Positions 11,402-52,050 of a stretch of 64,000 nucleotides of DNA are shown piece by piece (within the stretch, counting starts at the first letter, position 1; each line of letters begins with the position of its first letter). The stretch comes from Kribbella sp. CA-293567 (GTDB lineage: Bacteria; Actinomycetota; Actinomycetes; Propionibacteriales; Kribbellaceae), in contig NZ_CP114065.1 in the NCBI RefSeq assembly GCF_027627575.1, positions 6,014,001 to 6,078,000 of the forward strand, read 5' to 3'. The translations under genes and the position numbers were made by a program. The notes beneath the pieces are model-generated. The model saw only the letters and a program-made list of their open reading frames with translations. It was not told the origin of the DNA and searched no databases.

Positions 11402-12865
11402 GTGACCGTGGCCGACCTCTACCTCCGCCTGTCCGAGTCGGACGACGCTTCTACCTCCATCGCCCGGCAAGAGGCCGACCTCCGTCTCCTCTGCGAGCGC
11501 GAGGGCTGGACCGTGGGCGAGGTCCTGATTGACGACGGCCTCTCGGGTGGCTACACCCGCGCCAAGGCCGTAGAGGCCCTGGAGCGCCTCCGCACCGGGC
11601 AAAGCCACGTCCTCGCCGTGTGGAAGTTTGACCGCTGGTCCCGGCAGGGCCTGACCGCCCTCGCCGCGCTGATCGAAGCCTTGGACGAGAGCAAGACTGG
11701 CCTCTTCGTGGCCGAGCGCGACGGCCTTCGATCCTCCCAACCCGCTTGGCGGATCATCGCGTCCGTCCTCGCCGAGGTCGCCCGTATGGAGCGCGAGAAC
11801 ATTCAGACCCGCGTTCGGTCGAGCATCGCCGCCCTGAAGAAGGGCGGCCGGTTCTCCGGCGGCACCCTCGCCTACGGCTACGAATCCGCGAAGGACCCCA
11901 ACTCCGCGGGCCGCGTCCTCGTGCTCAGTCCCTCGGAGTCCGCCATCGTCCGTGAGGCCGCGTCCCGCGTACTCCGCGGAGAGTCGGTCTACCGCATCAC
12001 CACGGACTTCAACACCCGCGGCGTCCCCACGCGCCGGGCGAAGCACTGGACCGTTACGGCCCTCCGGCAGATCCTCGTCTCAGACGCCATCGTCGGCCGG
12101 GTCACCCACGATGGGGAGTTGCTCCGCGGCCCTGACGGCCTCCCTGTGGAGGTTTGGCCGCCTGTCCTGGACTTGGAGACCTGGCACCGCCTGAGGGCGC
12201 GCCTGGACGCCGACAAGCCCGGCTCAGAGCGCACCCAACGCCGCCGCCGTGCGCGCCTTCTCTCCGGCATCGTCAAGTGCGGTGGATGCGGCCGGCCGCT
12301 GTACGTGAAGTACAACGGGCAAGGCCAGACGTCCTACGGATGCTCGGCCCGAAACAACGGTCAGCCCTGCCCCGGCGTGGCCATCGTGGCCGACCAACTG
12401 GAGGAGTACGTCACCGGCCGGTTCCTGTCCGCCGTCGGTCACCTGGAGGTCTTCGAGCGCGTGGAGGAGCTGCCGGATATCGCCGCCCTCGCGGACGTGG
12501 AGCAGGCCATCTCGGCGACCGCCGCCAAGATGGCCGACGATGACGCCGACGTCGTCACCCTCGCGGCTCAGCTCGCCAACCTGAAGGTTCGCCGGACCGA
12601 GCTGAAGTCCCGCCCGGCCGAGCGAGTGGTGAAGCTCGTGGGTAAAGGCTTCACGTTCGCCGAGTACTGGGAGGCCGCCAACGACGTCGGCCTACGCAAC
12701 GCGCTTCTCGCGGCCAACATCGCCACGCTGTCCGTTGCCAAGGGAAGGAAGGTCGGCAAAGGACCCATCGACTTCGGCGCCCGCGTCGCGTTGCTCTTTC
12801 AGCCCGCGCACTACGGCGACGCATGGCGCACCCCCGAGGGCCGCGTCTACGCCGAGGCCGTGTGA
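11402..12865 (+). CDS. int: large serine recombinase (phage integrase)
   Basis: A 487-residue site-specific recombinase that inserts the phage into cpaF. The N-terminal resolvase domain (about 1-150) has the nucleophile Ser11 in LYLRLSESDD and the conserved arginines of SIARQ and KFDRWSRQG. The recombinase domain follows (about 160-270), then a zinc-ribbon (CGGCGRPLY and CSARNNGQPC, about 295-325) and a coiled-coil C-terminus. It starts with GTG. The length is near the lower end for this class. A separate directionality factor would be needed for excision; none is recognisable, and candidates are among the small genes near attR. Confidence 0.96.
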   Translation: MTVADLYLRLSESDDASTSIARQEADLRLLCEREGWTVGEVLIDDGLSGGYTRAKAVEALERLRTGQSHVLAVWKFDRWSRQGLTALAALIEALDESKTGLFVAERDGLRSSQPAWRIIASVLAEVARMERENIQTRVRSSIAALKKGGRFSGGTLAYGYESAKDPNSAGRVLVLSPSESAIVREAASRVLRGESVYRITTDFNTRGVPTRRAKHWTVTALRQILVSDAIVGRVTHDGELLRGPDGLPVEVWPPVLDLETWHRLRARLDADKPGSERTQRRRRARLLSGIVKCGGCGRPLYVKYNGQGQTSYGCSARNNGQPCPGVAIVADQLEEYVTGRFLSAVGHLEVFERVEELPDIAALADVEQAISATAAKMADDDADVVTLAAQLANLKVRRTELKSRPAERVVKLVGKGFTFAEYWEAANDVGLRNALLAANIATLSVAKGRKVGKGPIDFGARVALLFQPAHYGDAWRTPEGRVYAEAV

Positions 12866-22466: not shown

Positions 22467-22739
22467 ATGACCGCACGCAAGACGACTCCCCGCCGGACCG
22501 CCGCGAAGGCGGGCACCGTGACCTTTGAGCACAACGGCACGGAGTACACGATCGACCCGGCCGACAAGTGGTCGCTCGACGCCCTGGAGGCGTTCGAAGA
22601 CGGCAAGGTCGTCACCGCTTGCCGCGAGATCCTCGCGCCGAAGCAGTGGGCCGACTTCAAGGCCACGAAGCCGGGCGGCCCCGGCCTCGGCGAGATGCTC
22701 GCCGCCATCGCGGCGGCCGTTGGCATCTCGGGAAACTGA
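22467..22739 (+). CDS. tail assembly chaperone, upstream frame (lambda gpG-like)
   Basis: A 90-residue protein (ATG at 22467; basic start MTARKTTPRRTAAKAG). It precedes the tape measure, as lambda G does. At its last codons the sequence is G GGA AAC TGA, i.e. the slippery heptamer GGGAAAC at 22730-22736 right before the stop. A -1 shift there continues into the overlapping frame ending at 23086, giving a GT-type fusion. These chaperones coat the tape measure during tail assembly. Confidence 0.85.
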   Translation: MTARKTTPRRTAAKAGTVTFEHNGTEYTIDPADKWSLDALEAFEDGKVVTACREILAPKQWADFKATKPGGPGLGEMLAAIAAAVGISGN

Positions 22740-31162: not shown

Positions 31163-31789
31163 ATGGCAACCCATCTCATCGGAATCACCGGCCGCAAGCG
31201 GTCCGGCAAAGACACCTTCGCCGAGCGCCTCGTGACTGAGCACGGCTTCAAGCGGTTTGCCTTCGCGGACAACCTCCGCAAGGCCGCCCTCGCGATTGAC
31301 CCGATCGTCGGCGTGGAGTGTGGGCGCTACTCCGAGGACGTGGACTTGTTCGTCCGCCTCTCCGAGGTCATCGCTGCCCACGGCTGGGAGGGCGTAAAGG
31401 ATTCCCCCTACGACGCCGAGGTCCGCCGCACCCTCCAGCGCGTCGGCGTCACGGCCCGCGAGCTGGACCCAGGGATTTGGGTCAGGCCCGTAATGCACGC
31501 CATCGGCAACCACGACGGCCCGGCCGTCATCACGGACGTCCGCTTCCCCAACGAGCTGGAGGCCGTCCACGACGCCGACGGCTGGTCAGTCCGCGTCACC
31601 CGCTCCGGCCTGCCTGACGACGGCGACCTCCACATCTCGGAGACCGCCCTTGACGACGCCGCGGTCAACCTCGGCTACTCCAATAACTCGAGCATCTCGG
31701 CCCTCCACGCGAAGGCCGATGAGTGCGTCCGCGTCCTCCGCAACAACGGCGACGCCGAGCTGATCGGCCGCTCCGACACCTGGCAGTAG
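31163..31789 (+). CDS. deoxynucleoside monophosphate kinase-like protein
   Basis: A 208-residue P-loop kinase. The Walker A motif is GRKRSGKDTF at residues 8-17, with the typical phage dNMP-kinase pattern FAFADNLRKAAL, VITDVRFPNELEAV and RVTRSG. It would phosphorylate dNMPs for phage DNA synthesis. It starts after TAGGAG and heads the block downstream of the third 31-bp repeat. Confidence 0.88.
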   Translation: MATHLIGITGRKRSGKDTFAERLVTEHGFKRFAFADNLRKAALAIDPIVGVECGRYSEDVDLFVRLSEVIAAHGWEGVKDSPYDAEVRRTLQRVGVTARELDPGIWVRPVMHAIGNHDGPAVITDVRFPNELEAVHDADGWSVRVTRSGLPDDGDLHISETALDDAAVNLGYSNNSSISALHAKADECVRVLRNNGDAELIGRSDTWQ

Positions 31790-31837: not shown

Positions 31838-31858
31838 CCACTCCGAGGTTGCTAGTGG
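31838..31858 (+). promoter_or_regulatory. operator-family site A (degenerate) upstream of 31930 gene
   Basis: CCACT...AGTGG with the family's internal GAGGTT, in the same place relative to a TCTGCCA -35-like box as the other sites, but with no good -10. A further left half-site CCACTCGGAGG starts at 31913 and overlaps the ribosome site of the next gene. Confidence 0.5.
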
Positions 31859-31929
31859 CCCCTCAGCCGGGCACACTGGAGCTTCGGCCCGAACCGGCCG
31901 GTAACTCACCGACCACTCGGAGGCTCACC

Positions 31930-32496
31930 GTGGGCAAGAAATCCCTGGAGCGCGTCAAGGCCGACGCCGCTACCGCGCTGGAGAAGTACTTCACCGAGGG
32001 TGAGAACAACATCGACCTCCTCCGCTCGGCGGGCGCCGCCGTGGTCGAGCTGCGCTCCCGCTTCCAACAAAAGGACGGCTCGACCGACTGGGCCGGCCGT
32101 TCGCAGGACTACCGCGACGCGATCCGCGACGTTTACACGCGCGCCCACCTCTCCCAGGACCAGGTCTCGAAGCTCCCCGGCAAGCTCGGCTACCACGTCC
32201 GGCAGGCTCTCGGCGCCCGCATCTCCGCCGACGAACTGGAGGCGGCGGGATTCAAGGCGGAGGACCCGAAGATCCGACAGAACGCGCGCCGTACGACAGC
32301 GGCGGCTCTTGCGGCGACAGTCGCACCGTCGGTGACGCCGGCCGTCCTCATCGTTCACGCCAACTCTCTCCTCAAGCGGGCCGACTCCGGCGACGGGCTG
32401 GCCGAGATGACGGAGCAGGAGCGCGAGGTCTGCCGTATCGCACTCGCCGCCATCGAAAAGCACGCGGCATCCCTGAGCAAGGCGCTCGCGGGCTGA
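31930..32496 (+). CDS. phage protein of unknown function
   Basis: A 188-residue, mostly helical protein (GTG start behind CGGAGG). The N-terminus VGKKSLERVKADAATALEKYFTE and the motif SQDYRDAIRDVYTRAHLSQDQVSKLPGKLGYHVRQAL suggest DNA- or protein-binding helices. It lies alone between a terminator and the first palindromic element, behind a degenerate operator. A GTTTACAC octamer is inside at 32131. Not recognised. Confidence 0.7.
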   Translation: MGKKSLERVKADAATALEKYFTEGENNIDLLRSAGAAVVELRSRFQQKDGSTDWAGRSQDYRDAIRDVYTRAHLSQDQVSKLPGKLGYHVRQALGARISADELEAAGFKAEDPKIRQNARRTTAAALAATVAPSVTPAVLIVHANSLLKRADSGDGLAEMTEQEREVCRIALAAIEKHAASLSKALAG

Positions 32497-34390: not shown

Positions 34391-34411
34391 CCACTCGCAA
34401 CCTCCGAGCCA
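34391..34411 (+). promoter_or_regulatory. operator-family site G (degenerate)
   Basis: CCACTCGCAACCTCCGAG matches the left arm and centre of the operator family (compare the sites at 50750 and 51463), but the right arm ends CCA rather than TGR. No -10 is seen. It lies between the 33992 gene and its terminator. Confidence 0.4.
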
Positions 34412-44370: not shown

Positions 44371-44402
44371 CGTCACCACTCGGGACCTCTGAGTGATATT
44401 TG
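44371..44402 (+). promoter_or_regulatory. operator-promoter site B for the sigma-like gene
   Basis: TCACCA, an 18-bp spacer filled by the operator, and TATTTG (44397-44402). The operator arms CCACTCGGG and TCTGAGTGA (44376-44396) follow the family pattern. Transcription from here would make a 5' leader of about 115 nt. Confidence 0.62.
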
Positions 44403-44433
44403 CTTTAAGCACCCGACTGACTTAGGTTCCTGA

Positions 44434-44454
44434 CCACTCGGAGGTTTCGAGTGA
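44434..44454 (+). promoter_or_regulatory. operator-family site C upstream of the sigma-like gene
   Basis: CCACTCGGA-GGT-TTCGAGTGA, one mismatch from a perfect inverted repeat. The -10 position (GAGCGG) is poor, so it may be an extra operator within the leader rather than a promoter. Confidence 0.6.
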
Positions 44455-44526
44455 GAGCGGGTCACTCGCGACCCCCTCCCGGCCCTCGCGGCCACCAATC
44501 CCCAACTCCCCCGGAGGCACTTCGCC

Positions 44527-45381
44527 ATGTCCGCTTTCTCCGCTGTCGCCACTCTAAACCTCTCAGTGGCCGACCAGTTCCGCCTCATCACCGACGCGCA
44601 GAACGTCCCCACCGAGACCGTCACCGACGAGGACGGAACCACCCGCACCGTCTACGGCCAGACCGTCGCCTCCGAGGCCGCCCTGACCCAGCTCTACACC
44701 GCGTTTCTCCCGGCCATCCGCAACGCCGCCCGGCAGACCTCGCAGGCCAACGGCACCGACGACGCCCTCATGGTCGCCACGGAGGCGTTCTTCCTCGCCA
44801 TCCGCGCCTTCGACCTGACGACTGAGTCCGCGCTCCACCACTCCATCTCCGCAATCCTCGTCCGCGCCGTGAAGCGCGCCGACCAGATCTCGGACGTAGT
44901 CGCCATCCCGGCAACGCCCGTCAAGCGCTATTGGCGCCTCGTGAACGACCACGACGGCGACGTCAAGGCCGCCTACGAAGCCGCAGGCGCCGACCGCGAC
45001 GACACGACCCGCCTCTCCAAGGCTGGCTTCCTCGCCGTCCACCGCGTCATGTCCGGCGTAAAGGACGTTGACGGCCTGGACGTCACAGACGTTGCCGACG
45101 GCAACCAGCCCGACGCCGCCTACCTGCTGTCCCTCGTCACGCCCCGGCAGGAGACCGCCCTCCGTCTCCGCTTCGGCTTTGACGACAACGACACCGAGGC
45201 CCTCCGCGAGCGCCACGAACACAAGCTCGGCTCGCAGATCCCGGACGTGGACCTCGTCCCGATCCTCAACGCGACCTTCCCCGCCCTCCCGCAGGTCTCC
45301 CGGCAGAAGGTCCAGCGCGAGCGGACCGCCGCCCTCGCCACCATGCGCGACGCCTGGACCGAAGAAATCAACGGCTACTGA
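44527..45381 (+). CDS. divergent sigma70-like RNA polymerase sigma factor
   Basis: A 284-residue protein. Residues 55-110 (YTAFLPAIRNAARQTS, ALMVATEAFFLAIRAFD) resemble sigma region 2; residues 145-155 (DVKAAYEAAG) a region-3-like element; residues 203-280 resemble region 4, with TPRQETALRLRFGF and the recognition-helix-like VSRQKVQRERTAALATMRD (compare VSRERVRQIE in RpoD types). An insertion at 217-250 separates 4.1 from 4.2. It is preceded by a terminator and two operator sites. It may direct RNA polymerase to the phage's repeated promoter-like elements. It could instead be a sigma-derived regulator. Confidence 0.68.
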   Translation: MSAFSAVATLNLSVADQFRLITDAQNVPTETVTDEDGTTRTVYGQTVASEAALTQLYTAFLPAIRNAARQTSQANGTDDALMVATEAFFLAIRAFDLTTESALHHSISAILVRAVKRADQISDVVAIPATPVKRYWRLVNDHDGDVKAAYEAAGADRDDTTRLSKAGFLAVHRVMSGVKDVDGLDVTDVADGNQPDAAYLLSLVTPRQETALRLRFGFDDNDTEALRERHEHKLGSQIPDVDLVPILNATFPALPQVSRQKVQRERTAALATMRDAWTEEINGY

Positions 45382-45409
45382 GCAAAGCGGCCACCGCTGA
45401 CCCACCTCC
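45379..45409 (+). promoter_or_regulatory. 31-bp repeat copy 8, promoter-like, downstream of the sigma-like gene
   Basis: TGAGCAAA, then CCGCTGACCCACCTCC ending at 45409. The TGA is the sigma-like gene's stop codon. The next start is at 45471. Confidence 0.62.
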
Positions 45410-45470
45410 TATGCACGCAAGACGAACACCCCAACTGCACATGCGAAAGCGCAAGCAAAGGAACGCCACC

Positions 45471-45584
45471 GTGAACTTCTCTCCCACCTACGACGAGCTG
45501 GACTTCGAGTCCCGCGACGTGATCGACGCGCAGGACACCGCCGCCGCCCTGACCATCCTCAACGACACCGAAGAGGGCTTCTGA
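45471..45584 (+). CDS. tiny acidic phage protein
   Basis: 37 residues from a GTG behind AAAGGAAC (VNFSPTYDELDFESRDVIDA...). Very acidic. The TGA overlaps the next ATG (TGATG). First gene after repeat copy 8. Unknown function. Confidence 0.5.
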   Translation: MNFSPTYDELDFESRDVIDAQDTAAALTILNDTEEGF

Positions 45585-45865
45585 TGAGCGATCGTCTCGG
45601 ACGCGGCCACTCGGCCTACGACATGCTCACCGCCGCCGGAGCGCCGGAGCTGCCCGCCCACCACTTCTACCGGATCAAGCAGGACCCGCACTCGGACCAC
45701 GTCGTCCGAGTGGAGGTCCGCGAGATCTCCACCCGCACCGGCTCGGAGCGGTTGTCCTGGGCAACCTTCTCCCTCCGCGAGGGCCTCGGCCCCGTCCTGG
45801 AGGCCACCGTCCGCGCCGCCACCGAAGCCTTTGACGACGCCTTCCCGAACGGAGTCCCCGCGTGA
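45584..45865 (+). CDS. phage protein of unknown function
   Basis: 93 residues. LPAHHFYRIKQDPHSDHVVRVEVREISTRTGSERLSWATFSLREG is beta-rich, and the C-terminal helix is LEATVRAATEAFDDAF. Coupled by overlaps on both sides. No family recognised. Confidence 0.55.
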   Translation: MSDRLGRGHSAYDMLTAAGAPELPAHHFYRIKQDPHSDHVVRVEVREISTRTGSERLSWATFSLREGLGPVLEATVRAATEAFDDAFPNGVPA

Positions 45866-46419
45866 CTACCATCCCCACCGGCCCGGAGCACATCAACCGC
45901 GAGGCCCGCGTCCTGGAGGACGTCCGCGCCCGCAACGACGGCCACACGCAGTACGAAGCGGGCGAGATCGTCCGCGTGATGGACGTCCGCCCGGCGCCGA
46001 GCTTCGGCGGCACCCCCAACCAGAGCGTCGGTTTCCGGCGCGTCACCATCGCAGGCGAGCCCGGCCGCCGGGCGGCGGCGACCAGCGCGAACAACCTGGA
46101 GCTAGTGCCGACCGAGGCCGAGCGCGCCTCCGCCCTTGCGGCCCTCGGTATCCCCGCTTCCCGGCCGGGCGTCACCGTCGCCTACGGGAACGGCGGAGGC
46201 GGCGGGGGTGGCGGCTTCTCCTCGTGGCGCCACGTCGGCACGGCGACCGAGGGCGCGCTCTTCGCCTGGGGCGGAGCGGGCGGAACCTCGGCCACCAGCC
46301 GCACGCCCGAGCGCCGGAACGCGAAGGAGATGGACCACGCCCACACCCGCGTCGCCGCCGCCTACCGCGAGCTGACCAACGCCCTGGACGCTCTCAAGAG
46401 CTTGGAGGCCCGGCCGTGA
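45862..46419 (+). CDS. phage protein with glycine-rich insert
   Basis: 185 residues (GTG start). The N-terminal half resembles a small beta barrel (RVLEDVRARNDGHTQYEAGEIVRVMDV, SVGFRRVTIAGEPG); a GNGGGGGGGGFSSW stretch splits it from a helical C-terminus (HAHTRVAAAYRELTNALDALKSLEA). Unknown function. Confidence 0.55.
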   Translation: MTTIPTGPEHINREARVLEDVRARNDGHTQYEAGEIVRVMDVRPAPSFGGTPNQSVGFRRVTIAGEPGRRAAATSANNLELVPTEAERASALAALGIPASRPGVTVAYGNGGGGGGGGFSSWRHVGTATEGALFAWGGAGGTSATSRTPERRNAKEMDHAHTRVAAAYRELTNALDALKSLEARP

Positions 46420-46679
46420 CGCTCGACCACCGAACCGGCTGGGACGAGGCTCTAGAGGCCGCCGCCGCGCACGTCCGCGCGGCGTGCCGTCACCGGACGT
46501 GGGCGGACTCGTCCTTCTGCAACGCCTGCGATGACGTCGCCGACACGATCGAAGAGACGCCCTACAAGGCGCCCGTCCTCGTCCTGGAGCTTCCGGTCAG
46601 TCGTTGGGTCGCCGGCGTCCTCCCCGGCGCCGCCGCACAACCTCGCCCGGTGGTTGCCCTGGGCAAGAGGTCATCGTGA
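46416..46679 (+). CDS. small phage protein with Cys/His cluster
   Basis: 87 residues (GTG start). CRHRTWADSSFCNACDDVADTIEET has a possible zinc site (C, H, C-x2-C). The C-terminus is Pro/Ala-rich. Overlaps its neighbours by 4 bp. Unknown function. Confidence 0.52.
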   Translation: MTLDHRTGWDEALEAAAAHVRAACRHRTWADSSFCNACDDVADTIEETPYKAPVLVLELPVSRWVAGVLPGAAAQPRPVVALGKRSS

Positions 46680-47005
46680 GCGCCCGTCGCATCCGCGGGG
46701 AGTCCTCTCCCGGCCTCGGCGACCGCGTTCGGATCGTCTCGTCCACCTCCGGCCGCGAGTGGTTCGGCGTCGTCCTCGTCTGGTCCGCCACCGGCGATCC
46801 CTTCGTCAGCGACGACGAGACCGCCGCCGTCCGGTGGTACCCGAAGTCATGGGTGGCCGAGGTCTTCCAACAGCCCGGCCGCCCGCTCCCTTGCTCTTGC
46901 TTCGTGCCCGGCCCTGACCAGCCCGACGCCGAGCCGAAGCCCGATCCCGACTGCGACCACCACGCCGACACCTCGGCCATCTTGAAGAGAGCGAGGGCGC
47001 GCTAG
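46676..47005 (+). CDS. small phage protein with beta-barrel N-terminus
   Basis: 109 residues (GTG start). GLGDRVRIVSSTSGREWFGVVLVWSATGDPFVSDDETAAVRWYPKSWVAEV looks like an SH3-like barrel, followed by a Pro/Asp/His-rich tail with CSCF. Unknown function. Confidence 0.52.
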   Translation: MSARRIRGESSPGLGDRVRIVSSTSGREWFGVVLVWSATGDPFVSDDETAAVRWYPKSWVAEVFQQPGRPLPCSCFVPGPDQPDAEPKPDPDCDHHADTSAILKRARAR

Positions 47006-47175
47006 TGGCCGCACCGCGATTCGTTGTCGTTGGCAACGGCCTGCGCGCCTGGCGCCGGCCGCCCGAATGCCGCCACGAAAACGACGACGTCTGTTCGGTC
47101 TGCGACTTCGACGGCTACTACGAGACGACCTATCCGGCCGTCCCTTGGAAGACACCGGAGGCCCCGACTCCGTGA
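47005..47175 (+). CDS. tiny zinc-finger-like protein
   Basis: 56 residues (GTG sharing its G with the preceding TAG). RPPECRHENDDVCSVCDFDGYYE gives a C-x2-H and C-x2-C arrangement. Unknown function. Confidence 0.52.
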   Translation: MAAPRFVVVGNGLRAWRRPPECRHENDDVCSVCDFDGYYETTYPAVPWKTPEAPTP

Positions 47176-47306
47176 CGTTTACACGCCCTGTCTCCCTCCC
47201 CCGCCCCGCACAACGGACTCACTGTCCCGAGTGCGGGGCGGTTCTCGTTTGGGCGGCCGGCCTGCCGATCCGGTGGGTTTGTCGAAACCCGCATCCGCCC
47301 CGGTGA
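47172..47306 (+). CDS. tiny zinc-ribbon-like protein
   Basis: 44 residues (GTG start). HCPECGAVLVWAAGLPIRWVCRNPH is a C-x2-C...C ribbon. A GTTTACAC octamer (47177-47184) covers its second to fifth codons. Its TGA begins 31-bp repeat copy 9. Confidence 0.52.
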   Translation: MTFTRPVSLPRPAQRTHCPECGAVLVWAAGLPIRWVCRNPHPPR

Positions 47307-47334
47307 GCAAAGCGGCCTCCGCTGACCTACCTCC
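47304..47334 (+). promoter_or_regulatory. 31-bp repeat copy 9, promoter-like, upstream of 47377 gene
   Basis: TGAGCAAA, then CCGCTGACCTACCTCC ending at 47334; the next ATG is 43 bp downstream. The TGA is the stop codon of the preceding gene. Confidence 0.6.
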
Positions 47335-47376
47335 CTGCCAGACCACCGAATAGCAACGAACGGAGACCACCTCCCC

Positions 47377-48003
47377 ATGACTGCCATCAACGACCGCGTC
47401 CGCATCACTCGGGCCGTCGGCGAGAGCCGGGCGCGCACCGACGGCGGCGGCGTCGTCGGCCGCATCGAGAGCATCGATCCATCCGTCAACCGGCGCGAGA
47501 GCGTCGTCTACGGCGTCCGTTCGGAAGGCACCGGCTTTATCCACTCGGCTTATGAGGTCGTTCCGGTAGCGGAGCCGACCCCGGCACCCGAGCCCGAGGC
47601 GCCCGTCCTGATCGATCAGGCCCGCGCACAAGCTCTCTACGCCGCGTCCGTCGTGCTCGGCGGCCACGAGCACGCCCTCGCCGAGGACGTCGTCCGGCTC
47701 GCGGAGTTCATCATCGCCGGAGAGGCAGTACAGGACGCCGTCGTCGTCAACGTCAACGCGACCTCGGACCCGACCGCGACCGTCGCCGCCGCAGTGGCGA
47801 GGCCGGACACCTCGCGGCGCCTCCACATCACCGACAACCACGGCGACAGGTTGACCGTCACGCGCGGCGATTTCGGCCGCCACTCGTCCCGCGTCCTCGC
47901 GACGATCCGCACCTCCGACGGGAGTGGCGCCAACCCCGTTGACGTCTACCTCCGCACGCCCGCCGAGCGGGACGAGCTGGTCGCCTACTTGCAGGCGCTC
48001 TGA
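47377..48003 (+). CDS. phage protein of unknown function
   Basis: 208 residues. The N-terminal barrel-like segment (INDRVRITRAVGESRARTDGGGVVGRIESI) resembles those of 45862 and 46676, followed by a Pro/Glu linker and a mixed C-terminal domain (LIDQARAQALYAASVVLGGHEHALAEDVVRLAEFI). Unknown function. Confidence 0.56.
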   Translation: MTAINDRVRITRAVGESRARTDGGGVVGRIESIDPSVNRRESVVYGVRSEGTGFIHSAYEVVPVAEPTPAPEPEAPVLIDQARAQALYAASVVLGGHEHALAEDVVRLAEFIIAGEAVQDAVVVNVNATSDPTATVAAAVARPDTSRRLHITDNHGDRLTVTRGDFGRHSSRVLATIRTSDGSGANPVDVYLRTPAERDELVAYLQAL

Positions 48004-48296
48004 TGGGCAAGTTCGCCGAGATCGTCGGCGAGGGTGCCGAGGATCTCGAAGCCCTGACCGCCGGCCCCATCCACGACGTCCACCCCGACGACCTCATGTA
48101 CCACACCGACGGCGACGGCGACGAGCTGAAGGTTGCCTACTACGTCCGCGACAACTGCGACGGCTCGCCCATCACCGCAGGCTTCCACTTCGCCACCACT
48201 CCGGACGGCGTCGTCCTGGACCTGGAGGCCGCCGAGCGTCAAGCCGAGTGGCTACAAATGTTCATCGAACAGGCTCGGGAGGCCAAGCTCTCATGA
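48003..48296 (+). CDS. acidic phage protein of unknown function
   Basis: 97 residues (MGKFAEIVGEGAEDLEALTAGPIHDVHPDDL...). The C-terminal helix is DLEAAERQAEWLQMFIEQAREA. Stop overlaps the next ATG (ATGA). Confidence 0.54.
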   Translation: MGKFAEIVGEGAEDLEALTAGPIHDVHPDDLMYHTDGDGDELKVAYYVRDNCDGSPITAGFHFATTPDGVVLDLEAAERQAEWLQMFIEQAREAKLS

Positions 48297-48604
48297 CTCC
48301 GCAGGAGTACCGCGAGGAGGCCACGCGCCTCCTCGCCGAGGCCCAGACCTACGGAGTCGGCCACCCGCTCCGCGCCGACGCCCTCGCTCAGGCGCAGATC
48401 AACGCCACCCTTGCCCTCGGCAACGACCAACCCGAATGGCGCCACGAGATCCGCGTACAAGCCGACCTCACCGACGCCCTACGGACCGTCCCCATTCCCC
48501 CGCCCGCGCCACCGACTCCGCCCACCCCCGCAGCAAAGAAGACCACCGCACCTCGCAAGCGAACGACCACCAAACCGACCACCAGCAAGGGGAATACGAA
48601 GTGA
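48293..48604 (+). CDS. phage protein with Pro/Lys/Thr-rich tail
   Basis: 103 residues. Helices PQEYREEATRLLAEAQTYGVGHPLRADALAQAQINATLALG lead into a disordered PPPAPPTPPTP and Lys/Thr-rich tail, perhaps DNA-binding. Unknown function. Confidence 0.54.
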   Translation: MTPQEYREEATRLLAEAQTYGVGHPLRADALAQAQINATLALGNDQPEWRHEIRVQADLTDALRTVPIPPPAPPTPPTPAAKKTTAPRKRTTTKPTTSKGNTK

Positions 48605-49158
48605 CTCTCACGCAAACCAAGCTCGACCGCGACGGCGTCAACGTCCACGTCAACCCCGCGTCGCCCGACGCCTACCGGACGAACGCCATTCCGGCGGACT
48701 GTGTCGGCGTCCTCGGCGCAGGTACCGGCGGCCTGCGAGTACACGAAGCCTTCCTCGACCGCGAGGACGCCGTCCGCATCATCACAGCACTCACGGACGC
48801 CGTGGAGGCGTACGACGGCCGCGAGGACGCGCAGAGCGAGGCCGCCCGCAAGGCCCGCGAGCTGGAGGCGCAGCAACGCAACCTCCGCATGGTCGCCGCG
48901 CAGAAGCAGGCCGACGCCGCGCACGCCCTGACCTTCAAGGCGGGCGATATCGTCCTGATTGGGGACAAGCCCGGCACCCACCGCAACGGCGGCTACGTCC
49001 GGCCGTCGGCCGCCGGCCGCCCTGGCTTCGTGTCAGGCGATATGCGGCGGCCCGGCTGTGTCCCGGTCACCTACCGGTCGGCCGAGTACGGCAACCACCA
49101 GTACACCGAGCAGATTCACGTGTCCTCGCTGACCAAGGCGAAGGCGGTTCCCGCGTGA
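48601..49158 (+). CDS. phage protein with central coiled coil
   Basis: 185 residues (GTG start). N-terminal DCVGVLGAGTGGLRVHEAFLDREDAVRIITALTDAVEAYDG, a coiled coil (QSEAARKARELEAQQRNLRMVAAQKQA) and a barrel-like C-terminus (FKAGDIVLIGDKPGTHRNGGYVRP). It shares its layout with the 49328 gene, suggesting paralogues. Confidence 0.55.
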   Translation: MTLTQTKLDRDGVNVHVNPASPDAYRTNAIPADCVGVLGAGTGGLRVHEAFLDREDAVRIITALTDAVEAYDGREDAQSEAARKARELEAQQRNLRMVAAQKQADAAHALTFKAGDIVLIGDKPGTHRNGGYVRPSAAGRPGFVSGDMRRPGCVPVTYRSAEYGNHQYTEQIHVSSLTKAKAVPA

Positions 49159-49331
49159 ACCGCGCCGAGGCGCTCGCCCTCGCTACAAAGACCGTCAACG
49201 AGATCTCCCCGCCCGCCAACTCCCGCGGCTACGCGGACGGTGTCGCACCGCTGGCCGCCCGCGGCGAGCTGATCCTCCGCATGGCCGCCTTCCTCTGCGA
49301 GACCACCGACACAGAAGGGACCACCTCGTGA
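49155..49331 (+). CDS. small phage protein of unknown function
   Basis: 58 residues (GTG start): VNRAEALALATKTVNEISPPANSRGYADGVAPLAARGELILRMAAFLCE. Helical. Overlaps both neighbours by 4 bp. Confidence 0.5.
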   Translation: MNRAEALALATKTVNEISPPANSRGYADGVAPLAARGELILRMAAFLCETTDTEGTTS

Positions 49332-49729
49332 CCCTCACCCGCTTTACCGCCCTGGACGGCGACACCATCACCATCACGCCCGGCAGCACTATCTACAACG
49401 ACGGCGTCTCCATCGCCGAAATCGACGCGACCGCGTGCCCGCTCGACCGGGAGGGCACGGTCCGCGTGATCGAAGCCCTGACCGACCTCGTCCAGGCCGC
49501 CGACGTCGCCGAGGCCGAGAAGCTCGCCGCCGAGGCCACCCGGCTCGCCGCCCCCTTCAAGGCCGGAGAGCGCGTCTACGGGAACCGTACGCAAGACAGC
49601 TACACCGTCGTCTCTGACCAGACCGCCCACGGCACCGCGTCGTTCGTACACCTGCGAACGGGCGACCTGAAGCCCGGCTACCTCACCCGGAACTTCCACC
49701 GCATGAGTCGCACCGTCTCGCCCTTCTGA
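49328..49729 (+). CDS. phage protein paralogous to the 48601 product
   Basis: 133 residues (GTG start). ISTIYNDG-type N-terminus with IAEIDATACPLDREGTVRVIEALTDLVQAADVAEAEKLAAEATRLAAPFKAGERVYG follows the same order (D-R-E helix, coiled coil, KAG barrel) as the larger 48601 protein. Unknown function. A terminator follows. Confidence 0.55.
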   Translation: MTLTRFTALDGDTITITPGSTIYNDGVSIAEIDATACPLDREGTVRVIEALTDLVQAADVAEAEKLAAEATRLAAPFKAGERVYGNRTQDSYTVVSDQTAHGTASFVHLRTGDLKPGYLTRNFHRMSRTVSPF

Positions 49730-49735
49730 CCAACC

Positions 49736-49775
49736 GCCCCCGCCTCCCGGCCGCCCCTGGGAGTCGGGGGCTTTC
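49736..49775 (+). terminator. intrinsic terminator
   Basis: GCCCCCG (49736-49742) pairs with CGGGGGC (49765-49771), with further inner pairing CTCCC/GGGAG, followed by TTTC. It lies just upstream of operator-promoter D. Confidence 0.75.
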
Positions 49776-49781
49776 GTCGTT

Positions 49782-49817
49782 TTGCCACTCGGAGGTTCCG
49801 AGTGGTACTGTTTACAC
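49782..49817 (+). promoter_or_regulatory. operator-promoter site D
   Basis: TTGCCA (49782-49787), an 18-bp spacer and TACTGT (49806-49811). The spacer region is a perfect inverted repeat: arms CCACTCGGA and TCCGAGTGG around GGT (49785-49805). GTTTACAC (49810-49817) covers the end of the -10 and the start point. It drives the 49858-50770 genes. Confidence 0.8.
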
Positions 49818-49857
49818 ATCGGGCGGAACCACCGCCCCGAGGCCCCGGGAGGCCACC

Positions 49858-50121
49858 ATGACCCGCACCGCCAACCGCCACCGCTGCATCCACGGCGTGA
49901 CTCCCCGTTGCACTCGCGGCAACGGCAAGCCGAAGCGTCAGAAGTGCGCGGAATGCGGCGGCGCTCTCCTCGTGGAGTCCGGCGTGTTCGGCGTCTTCGA
50001 CCACCGCGGAGACGGCCGGTACCGCCTGGCCGACGCGCACGCGACCTACGCGATGGAGGCCGCCGCGACGCGCGAAGCCGCAAAGGACATGCGCCGCGTC
50101 GTGCGCTTCATCACCGCCTGA
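49858..50121 (+). CDS. small Cys-rich phage protein
   Basis: 87 residues. HRCIHGVTPRCTRGNGKPKRQKCAECGGALLVESG resembles a zinc ribbon, followed by a basic helix (YAMEAAATREAAKDMRRVVRF). It is the first gene under operator-promoter D. Its TGA begins the 57-nt hairpin element copy 1. Confidence 0.55.
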   Translation: MTRTANRHRCIHGVTPRCTRGNGKPKRQKCAECGGALLVESGVFGVFDHRGDGRYRLADAHATYAMEAAATREAAKDMRRVVRFITA

Positions 50122-50175
50122 TCGGGCGACAGTCGGCGGCGCCTCTAGCAGGCGCCGCCCATCGGCCGCCCGGCC
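50119..50175 (+). repeat. 57-nt structured 3'UTR element, copy 1
   Basis: Begins at the TGA stop of the 49858 gene. Stem GGCGGCGCC/GGCGCCGCC lies between conserved flanks (ATCGGGC...CAGTC and CATCGGCCGCCCGGCC). Copy 2 at 52048 keeps the flanks but has a different stem with compensating changes, so the RNA structure appears conserved. Confidence 0.7.
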
Positions 50176-50204
50176 GCCTTCACCAACCGAGAGGACCCAC
50201 CACC

Positions 50205-50510
50205 ATGGCCACCCGCACCCTCGCCACCCTCCGCGACGGCATCCCGCTCCCCTTCGACTGCAAGCCCTTCCGCGGCCCGAAGCTCACGAATGCCGGCAAG
50301 CCCTTCGAGCCGAAGCCGCGCGCCGCCGGTGACCGCCTGGAGATCACCGGCATTGACGGCGCCGAGGTTCTCGCCGAGGTGTGGGGTCCGGCCCTTGGCG
50401 CCGGTTGCGTCTGGGCCGTCGCCGACAACGTGGCCTACCTCGTGTCGAAGTCCGGCGCCGTCCTGGAGAACCGCGACTACCGCCGCCCGGCCGCCGAGGT
50501 GGCCGCGTGA
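50205..50510 (+). CDS. phage protein of unknown function
   Basis: 101 residues. Beta-rich (AAGDRLEITGIDGAEVLAEVWGPALGAGCVWAVADNVAYLVSKSGAVLENRDYRR). ATG behind GAGAGGA. Stop overlaps the next GTG. Confidence 0.55.
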   Translation: MATRTLATLRDGIPLPFDCKPFRGPKLTNAGKPFEPKPRAAGDRLEITGIDGAEVLAEVWGPALGAGCVWAVADNVAYLVSKSGAVLENRDYRRPAAEVAA

Positions 50511-50770
50511 GCCGCTCGAACCCCCGCTCGCCTGAGTGGGCCGTGTACTTCCGCAACCACCCCGAGGTCATCGCCTCGTGGGGCGAGTCGAACGGCCGAG
50601 CGCCTAACTGTCGGTGCGAGCCGTGCGAGTCCGATCTCTGCGCGGACTGCCTCCTCGCCCTGGACGCACACTGCGAGGAGTGCGGCGAGTGCTACTGCGA
50701 GGACGCCGCTTGCCTAGACGAGGACGAGGACGACTGGCTTTCTCGTTTGCCACTCGAAACCTCCGAGTGA
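50507..50770 (+). CDS. Cys-rich (zinc-binding) small phage protein
   Basis: 87 residues (GTG start). Eleven cysteines in 40 residues (CRCEPCESDLCADC, HCEECGECYCEDAAC) suggest two zinc sites. The 3' end of the gene contains operator-promoter E. Unknown function. Confidence 0.57.
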   Translation: MSRSNPRSPEWAVYFRNHPEVIASWGESNGRAPNCRCEPCESDLCADCLLALDAHCEECGECYCEDAACLDEDEDDWLSRLPLETSE

Positions 50771-50782
50771 TATTGTTTACAC
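50747..50782 (+). promoter_or_regulatory. operator-promoter site E for the SprT-like gene
   Basis: TTGCCA (50747-50752), 18-bp spacer, TATTGT (50771-50776). The operator is CCACTCGAA...TCCGAGTGA (50750-50770); GTTTACAC at 50775-50782. It overlaps the end of the upstream gene. Confidence 0.75.
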
Positions 50783-50825
50783 GTTGGGCCGGAACGACCG
50801 GCCCTCGGACCGCCCGGAGGGCCTC

Positions 50826-51419
50826 ATGACCGCCAAGCACAACACCCGCGAAGAGTGGCTCACCGCCGCAATCGCCGCCGTCGCCCCGCTCTTCGTTGCC
50901 AACGGCCACCAGCTCCCCGCGGTCCGCGTCTCGGTCGGCTTCCCCGGCGGCCGGGGTAACAAGACCTCCGTCATCGGGCAGTGCTGGCAGCCCGCCGCCT
51001 CGGCGGACGGCATCGGACAAATCTTCGTCTCCCCCATCCTCGGCGACGCGCCGACCGTCCTCTCCACGTTGGTTCACGAGTTGGTTCACGCCGTCAACCA
51101 CGCGAACGGCGACAGCGGCCACGGCAAAGAGTTCTCCGCGATCGCCAAGCCGCTCGGCCTCGTCGGCAAGATGACCGCCACCACGGCAGGCGAGACCCTC
51201 GCCGCCAACCTCGCCGCCACCTCCACCCTCCTCGGCGACTACCCGCACGCCGCCCTCACCCCCGCCCTCTCCGGCGTGAAAAAGCAGGGGACGCGGATGC
51301 TCAAGGTGACTTGCCCGGAGGACGGCTACCAGCTCCGCACAACCGCCAAGTGGTTGGCCGTCGGCGTCCCGACCTGCCCCTGTGGAACCGAGATGGAGGC
51401 CGAGGTCCCCTCCGAATGA
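50826..51419 (+). CDS. SprT-like zinc metalloprotease
   Basis: A 197-residue protein. The zincin motif is HELVHAVNH (H84, E85, H88) with a likely third ligand in GHGKEF near H99, and the C-terminus has a small Cys ribbon (VTCPEDGYQ and TCPCGTEM). SprT/Spartan proteins can cleave proteins cross-linked to DNA or host factors. A role in replication or take-over is plausible but unproven. It has its own operator-promoter. Confidence 0.85.
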   Translation: MTAKHNTREEWLTAAIAAVAPLFVANGHQLPAVRVSVGFPGGRGNKTSVIGQCWQPAASADGIGQIFVSPILGDAPTVLSTLVHELVHAVNHANGDSGHGKEFSAIAKPLGLVGKMTATTAGETLAANLAATSTLLGDYPHAALTPALSGVKKQGTRMLKVTCPEDGYQLRTTAKWLAVGVPTCPCGTEMEAEVPSE

Positions 51420-51459
51420 CCGGCAGTCGGCCGGGCCGTCACGGGGCGGCTCGGCCGAT

Positions 51460-51495
51460 TTGCCACTCTGAACCTCCGAGTGGTACTGTTTACAC
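51460..51495 (+). promoter_or_regulatory. operator-promoter site F, leaderless start
   Basis: TTGCCA (51460-51465), 18-bp spacer, TACTGT (51484-51489). The operator is CCACTCTGA...TCCGAGTGG (51463-51483); GTTTACAC at 51488-51495. The ATG begins at 51496, seven bases after the -10, so the mRNA probably starts at the initiation codon. Confidence 0.82.
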
Positions 51496-52050
51496 ATGAC
51501 GACGACGCGCAAGGCCACCACGACAGTCACCCACCCCGACGGCACCGTCTCGAAGCGGAACAGCGTTTCGAAGGTTTACACCCACGCGATCGAAGTTGCC
51601 GACGACAACCACATGGAGGCCGCCGAGCTGGCCCGCCTCGCGGAGCGCCGCGAAGCCGAGGCCGAGCAGTACAGCCGGGCGCTGGCCGAGGGTCACGTTG
51701 TGATCCGCGCCGAGCGGTGGGCCTTCGGTGGCCGTCGCCTGAAGTTCGCCCTGATCGACACCGCAACCGACGCCGAGCTGTACGCCGGAGCGCACATCGT
51801 CACCGACGAGGGCGTCCTCGCCACGAACTCCAAGGAAGCGGACGTCCCTTCCTCCGCCGCCCACACCATCGAGAGCCTGACCGCCGACGCCGCCCGCCTC
51901 CGCAAGCAGGCCGCCAAGCTGGCCGCCGGACCGCAGACCTCCTACGGCGTCGTTCGCTGGAGTCAGACCGAGCGCTCCGCCGTCGCCGCCCTCGCCTCGT
52001 TCAACCGCGCGGGCCGCGTCGCCCGCGTCGTCCCCGTAGACGCCGCCTGA
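51496..52050 (+). CDS. phage protein translated from a leaderless mRNA
   Basis: 184 residues. A Thr-rich start (MTTTRKATTTVTHPDGTVSKRNSVSKVYTHAIEVA) precedes helices with AERREAEAEQYSRALAEG and a C-terminal half. No ribosome site exists because the ATG coincides with the predicted transcription start. A second GTTTACAC octamer is inside (51574). Its TGA begins hairpin element copy 2. Function unknown. Confidence 0.68.
   Translation: MTTTRKATTTVTHPDGTVSKRNSVSKVYTHAIEVADDNHMEAAELARLAERREAEAEQYSRALAEGHVVIRAERWAFGGRRLKFALIDTATDAELYAGAHIVTDEGVLATNSKEADVPSSAAHTIESLTADAARLRKQAAKLAAGPQTSYGVVRWSQTERSAVAALASFNRAGRVARVVPVDAA

Follow-up and report, generated by a model that had tools for sequence, protein, structure and literature searches.

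The repressor gene c of phiC31 adjoins a dNMP kinase gene, and many intergenic copies of one palindrome, the conserved inverted repeats (CIRs, CCTACTCACGTGAGTAGG), serve as operators in this phage. A second phiC31 repeat, GGGTTGCCGACTYCCTTAC, was seen before early genes (for example at 22666, 25053, 27583 and 36222), separate from the CACGTG palindromes. In MerR-type promoters the dyad lies between the -35 and -10 boxes. In L5-type systems many repressor sites, the asymmetric stoperators, are distributed over the prophage genome (PMC9283540). For phage Samy (OR263580), the published report (PMC11302927) describes strong expression of the putative immunity repressor gene in the lysogen under every condition tested, and no description of the Samy repeats was found in the parts consulted. 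The AZ phage Powerpuff forms lysogens that are stable and homoimmune "despite lacking identifiable repressors" (PMC8758107), and a repressor was likewise not identified in the Eraser/Kaylissa/Phives and KeAlii papers.

We analyzed a 64,000 nucleotide stretch of the Kribbella sp. CA-293567 chromosome (NZ_CP114065.1, positions 6,014,001 to 6,078,000; hereafter the window), which contains a prophage with approximate limits of 11.4 and 55.6 kb. The prophage encodes a serine integrase (11402..12865, plus strand; phrog_95, E 8e-83), terminase, capsid and tail proteins, a dNMP kinase (31163..31789, plus strand; phrog_139, E 1e-39), an exonuclease, primase, polymerase, sigma factor and SprT-like protease. 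Its terminase is 64-69% identical to the terminases of Arthrobacter AZ, Microbacterium EH and Curtobacterium phages, and the known relatives of the element are the Arthrobacter cluster AZ and Microbacterium cluster EH phages. An exact scan of viral contigs gave 0 matches to the complete prophage module, and among same-genus genomes the module was present solely in the genome of this window. The sigma-like gene S (44527..45381, plus strand) is by its family profile a true sigma relative (E 3e-15 against bacterial sigma factors in the PDB) and follows the polymerase gene as in phiC31. This placement of a phage sigma gene after the DNA polymerase gene is kept in AZ, EH, Samy, phiC31 (gp12) and Nesbitt.

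Promoters D, E and F of the prophage each read TTGCCA-18-TAYTGT, and a 21-bp inverted repeat covers the final three bases of the -35 and the entire spacer. Promoter D (49782..49811, plus strand; -35 TTGCCA at 49782-49787, -10 TACTGT at 49806-49811) carries candidate operator D at 49785-49805 (plus strand, 9/9 arm pairs) and lies upstream of a gene at 49858..50121 (plus strand; phrog_4958). Promoter E (50747..50776, plus strand; -35 TTGCCA at 50747, -10 TATTGT at 50771) carries operator E at 50750-50770 (plus strand, 7/9 arm pairs) and is the putative control of the SprT-like protease gene (50826..51419, plus strand), whose product matches annotated SprT-like proteases and phrog_6361. Promoter F (51460..51489, plus strand; -35 TTGCCA at 51460, -10 TACTGT at 51484) carries operator F at 51463-51483 (plus strand, 8/9 arm pairs) and precedes a probably leaderless gene at 51496..52050 (plus strand). 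TTACAC stands directly 3' of the -10 at all three promoters, and at F the ATG at 51496 immediately follows TACTGT-TTACAC, so that an mRNA started there would have no leader. Because this ATG sits at leaderless-start spacing, the promoter reading at F is supported from sequence alone.

Further copies of the repeat, all on the plus strand, were located at two other loci and at one weak site. Upstream of the sigma gene, operator B (44376..44396) is flanked by the weak boxes TCACCA and TATTTG and operator C (44434..44454) has 2 mismatches, while operator H (44549..44569, CCACTCTAAACCTCTCAGTGG) lies within the start of the gene. A possible promoter between B and C (TTGCTT-17-TAGGTT, 44400 to 44428) was dropped as too weak. 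The degenerate operator A (31838..31858; 3 mismatches, 6/9 arm pairs) lies upstream of a gene that we call R, and a second degenerate copy, A' (31913..31933), extends over both the Shine-Dalgarno sequence and the GTG start codon of R. Operator G (34391..34411) is weak, with 4 mismatches and 5/9 arm pairs. The initial annotation had described D, E and F in the form given above and A and C as operator only; both descriptions are borne out, the first by coordinates and arm pairs and the second by the lack of boxes in the D/E/F register at A and C. Its promoter layout with weak boxes at B also stands, but the repeat there begins at 44376 and not at 44371, and its copy at G is present but weak. Sites A' and H, the candidate binder R with its homology and the octamer described below are additions to that annotation. 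An automatic palindrome search was drowned in GC-rich codons and was restricted to intergenic gaps. In total the prophage holds about nine copies, mostly intergenic and of a single palindrome type, like the phiC31 CIRs in number and placement and unrelated to them in sequence. At 3 or fewer mismatches the window contains 7 copies versus 0.09 expected, a number reached in 0/100 shuffles. Across the 7.61 Mb chromosome every copy with at most 1 mismatch, and all except one with at most 2, fell within the prophage.

We consider it likely that these repeats are the operators of the prophage immunity repressor, for which R (31930..32496, plus strand; 188 aa, GTG start) is the leading candidate by synteny and homology, in a phiC31-like system that would occlude RNA polymerase. 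R directly follows the dNMP kinase gene, as in AZ/EH phages and in the arrangement of phiC31 c. R and S are the sole regulator-like early genes common to the prophage and five fully read relatives, and the remaining shared early genes are few and encode enzymes. Homologues of R are labelled "hypothetical" in about 100 phage records, the annotated exception being SAMYPH_32 of Samy ("putative immunity repressor"). This 258 aa protein is encoded near the dNMP kinase gene, its core is homologous to R (33% over 67 residues) and it is matched by the R family HMM with an E of 1e-22. When the R family was compared with the phiC31 c family, hhalign returned a score of 35.6 over 95 columns (probability 55%), versus a maximum of 23.4 in 150 block shuffles; a reversed profile and the sigma family also scored below. 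Family profiles were needed for this result, as phiC31 c used as a single sequence (hhalign, HMM) gave no match to R in the right region.

Structural comparison pointed in the same direction. When an AZ-type R was modelled with AlphaFold (pLDDT 88.9) and searched with Foldseek, a direct relative came first and two c-type repressors took ranks 2-3, those of Nesbitt (prob 1.00, E 0.010) and of Shawty (prob 0.93); the Nesbitt and Shawty proteins are c homologues by sequence. Together these profile and model comparisons give good but remote evidence suggesting that R belongs to the phiC31 c repressor family, although c is 683 aa and R 188 aa. The AF2 model of the prophage R is all-alpha with a pLDDT of 83. 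Pfam, NCBIfam and PHROGs contained no informative family for the prophage R, four relatives matched DUF2264 weakly, and scanning genome contigs with only the prophage R as query found no relatives. Separately, another genome of the order (4.3 Mb) carries a pair of R genes with identical protein and upstream DNA (contig 1, 2241530 and 2603367). The two genes face opposite ways, about 362 kb from each other, and probably reflect either one prophage present twice or a duplication of this DNA.

That the repeats are repressor operators read by another phage protein or by a host regulator, with R otherwise involved in lysogeny, we regard as unlikely. In favor of this reading, family searches left several early genes of the prophage without a match, but R and S remain the only regulator-like early genes that the prophage shares with the relatives that keep the layout. 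Also against it, the host chromosome is nearly free of repeat copies. Searched against PDB folds, R gave middling helical matches and no recognized DNA-binding fold, which favors another binder; its homology to repressors argues the other way.

The placement of operators within promoters recurs in the related phages. In AZ and EH phages (Powerpuff, Amyev and Percival) the gene order, nested register and targets are as in the prophage, whereas the operator is CGYRAG-N4-CTYRCG, a repeat also seen in Curtobacterium phages, and the R gene (gp25 in Powerpuff) is annotated as a hypothetical protein. This repeat starts within a TTGCGY -35, taking in its last three positions, with TAnnnT 17-18 bp past that -35. 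Among 139 distinct sites in relatives, TAnnnT at +20/+21 was found at 33 in the forward and 1 in the reversed orientation, TTG at -3 at 23 forward and 12 reversed (the latter because the repeat arms mirror each other), and both boxes together at 21. A same-genus prophage uses a third repeat, CGCTAGGCCTAGCG, which fills TTGACG-17-TAACTT and TTGACG-17-TAAATT. Because the position of the repeat is conserved while its sequence changes, coincidence is disfavored and an operator favored, and as read from these sites the promoter-nested operator layout is retained across hosts despite the changed operator sequence. The targets recur as well, with operators upstream of the sigma gene in 13/17 relatives and upstream of the SprT gene in 7/15, versus 2-11% of random stretches, which supports the initial annotation in its choice of targets (the sigma-like gene, the SprT-like protease and small genes).

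Variation among the relatives was also evident. Their R genes often have a degenerate repeat (1-3 mismatches) about 33 bp before the start, inside a promoter whose -10 lies 6-7 bp from the ATG. In VroomVroom, Sue2 and KeAlii the right arms of the operators are poor. Samy resembles the prophage in carrying palindromes, of a CGTRAR type, upstream of its sigma and SprT genes, but there they lie upstream of another promoter element and of the visible promoters, not within them. The nested -35/-10 register was not found at the subset of phiC31 repeats inspected. With about 30% identity to AZ R, Percival R nevertheless goes with a repeat of the AZ type, so repeat type does not simply follow overall R identity. 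Covariation of a recognition helix with the operator (residues 83-87 are changed in the prophage R) was set aside, as the same-genus R with the third operator keeps the usual motif. VroomVroom, which has no annotated integrase, carries six copies of TGTTTCACGTGAAACA or near-matches (4446, 4967, 17371, 19114, 25324 and 42665), which we take to be the bacterial parS consensus; this phage may persist outside the chromosome as a prophage whose segregation depends on host ParB.

The promoters share a further element, the octamer GTTTACAC, found at 49810..49817 (plus strand) at promoter D, at 50775 at E and at 51488 at F, where it shares two bases with the end of the -10 TAYTGT. Exact copies numbered 16 on the plus and 2 on the minus strand of the prophage (window 12879-52494) versus 0.12 expected per strand. 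The exact octamer (YGTTTACACR) was about 139-fold above expectation, and one-mismatch forms were almost missing. No other octamer is as over-represented in the prophage, and in the fully read AZ/EH phages it ranks among the leading ones. In 35 promoters that have TTG and TAnnnT upstream of it, the octamer comes after the -10 or overlaps it. It was absent from the prophage flanks, Halsey, phiC31 and Nesbitt, and occurred once in 37 kb of Samy. Part of the copies are intragenic, in the form CGTTTACACG, of which 9/10 copies in the 7.6-Mb genome fall in the prophage, and a promoter class TAnACT-GTTTACAC was also found. In its distribution this asymmetric octamer is closer to L5-type stoperators than the palindromic 21-bp sites are. 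Tentatively, spacer-nested operator, -10 and exact asymmetric GTTTACAC over the start site could form a composite module in which the octamer is a second, stoperator-like or Chi-like signal with its own reader protein, an idea we hold to be possible but doubtful.

The octamer also bears on the role of S. The whole layout could be the recognition element of this sigma factor, in which case the dyad would belong to S-dependent promoters instead of serving as an operator, and it is consistent with this that S is a true sigma relative present in every annotated phage showing the layout and that GTTTACAC is common to the promoters as an extended element. However, repeats without boxes occur at A, C and H, the last of these inside the sigma gene itself, sigma factors recognize the -35 and -10 and not spacer dyads, and between phages the spacer sequence is wholly different while the boxes persist, making this reading very improbable. 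Least probable of all is a MerR-type or other activator on the spacer that realigns the boxes, since the dyad between the boxes, although directly visible in D, E and F, sits in 18-bp spacers in the prophage and in spacers of 17-18 bp in the relatives, where a MerR-type promoter needs 19-20 bp, degenerate repeats occur at R, itself likely a lysogeny gene, and no MerR-type match was found among the proteins scanned, which took in part of the small genes. The initial annotation preferred a repressor that blocks to an activator of MerR type, and this choice is supported: relatives whose repeats are unrelated in sequence show the nested register again, with 17- or 18-bp spacers.

Taking R as the immunity repressor and the repeats as its operators, we infer a mechanism from what was read directly: the sites, their register and the return of this register in related phages, the common targets and the homology of R to the Samy putative immunity repressor. 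R, probably as a dimer, would occupy the palindrome between the -35 and -10 of D, E and F and would thereby exclude RNA polymerase. Because 17-18 bp is a normal spacer, no DNA untwisting would be needed. Sites B, C and H would have the same role at S, a likely lytic master gene. The operators at R itself, A and A', are degenerate, which would allow weak autoregulation with R staying on in the lysogen, and induction would lead to derepression.

In the literature searched, mostly open papers and with the phiC31 operator papers outside its scope, no prior description of these operators was found. R together with the repeats is a concrete candidate for the missing AZ-type repressor. A single nested layout with shifting operator sequence is what would be expected if immunity specificity evolves, and a candidate repressor and operators can now be named for the AZ, EH and Curtobacterium-relative clusters, whose lysogens are immune and for which no repressor had been found before.
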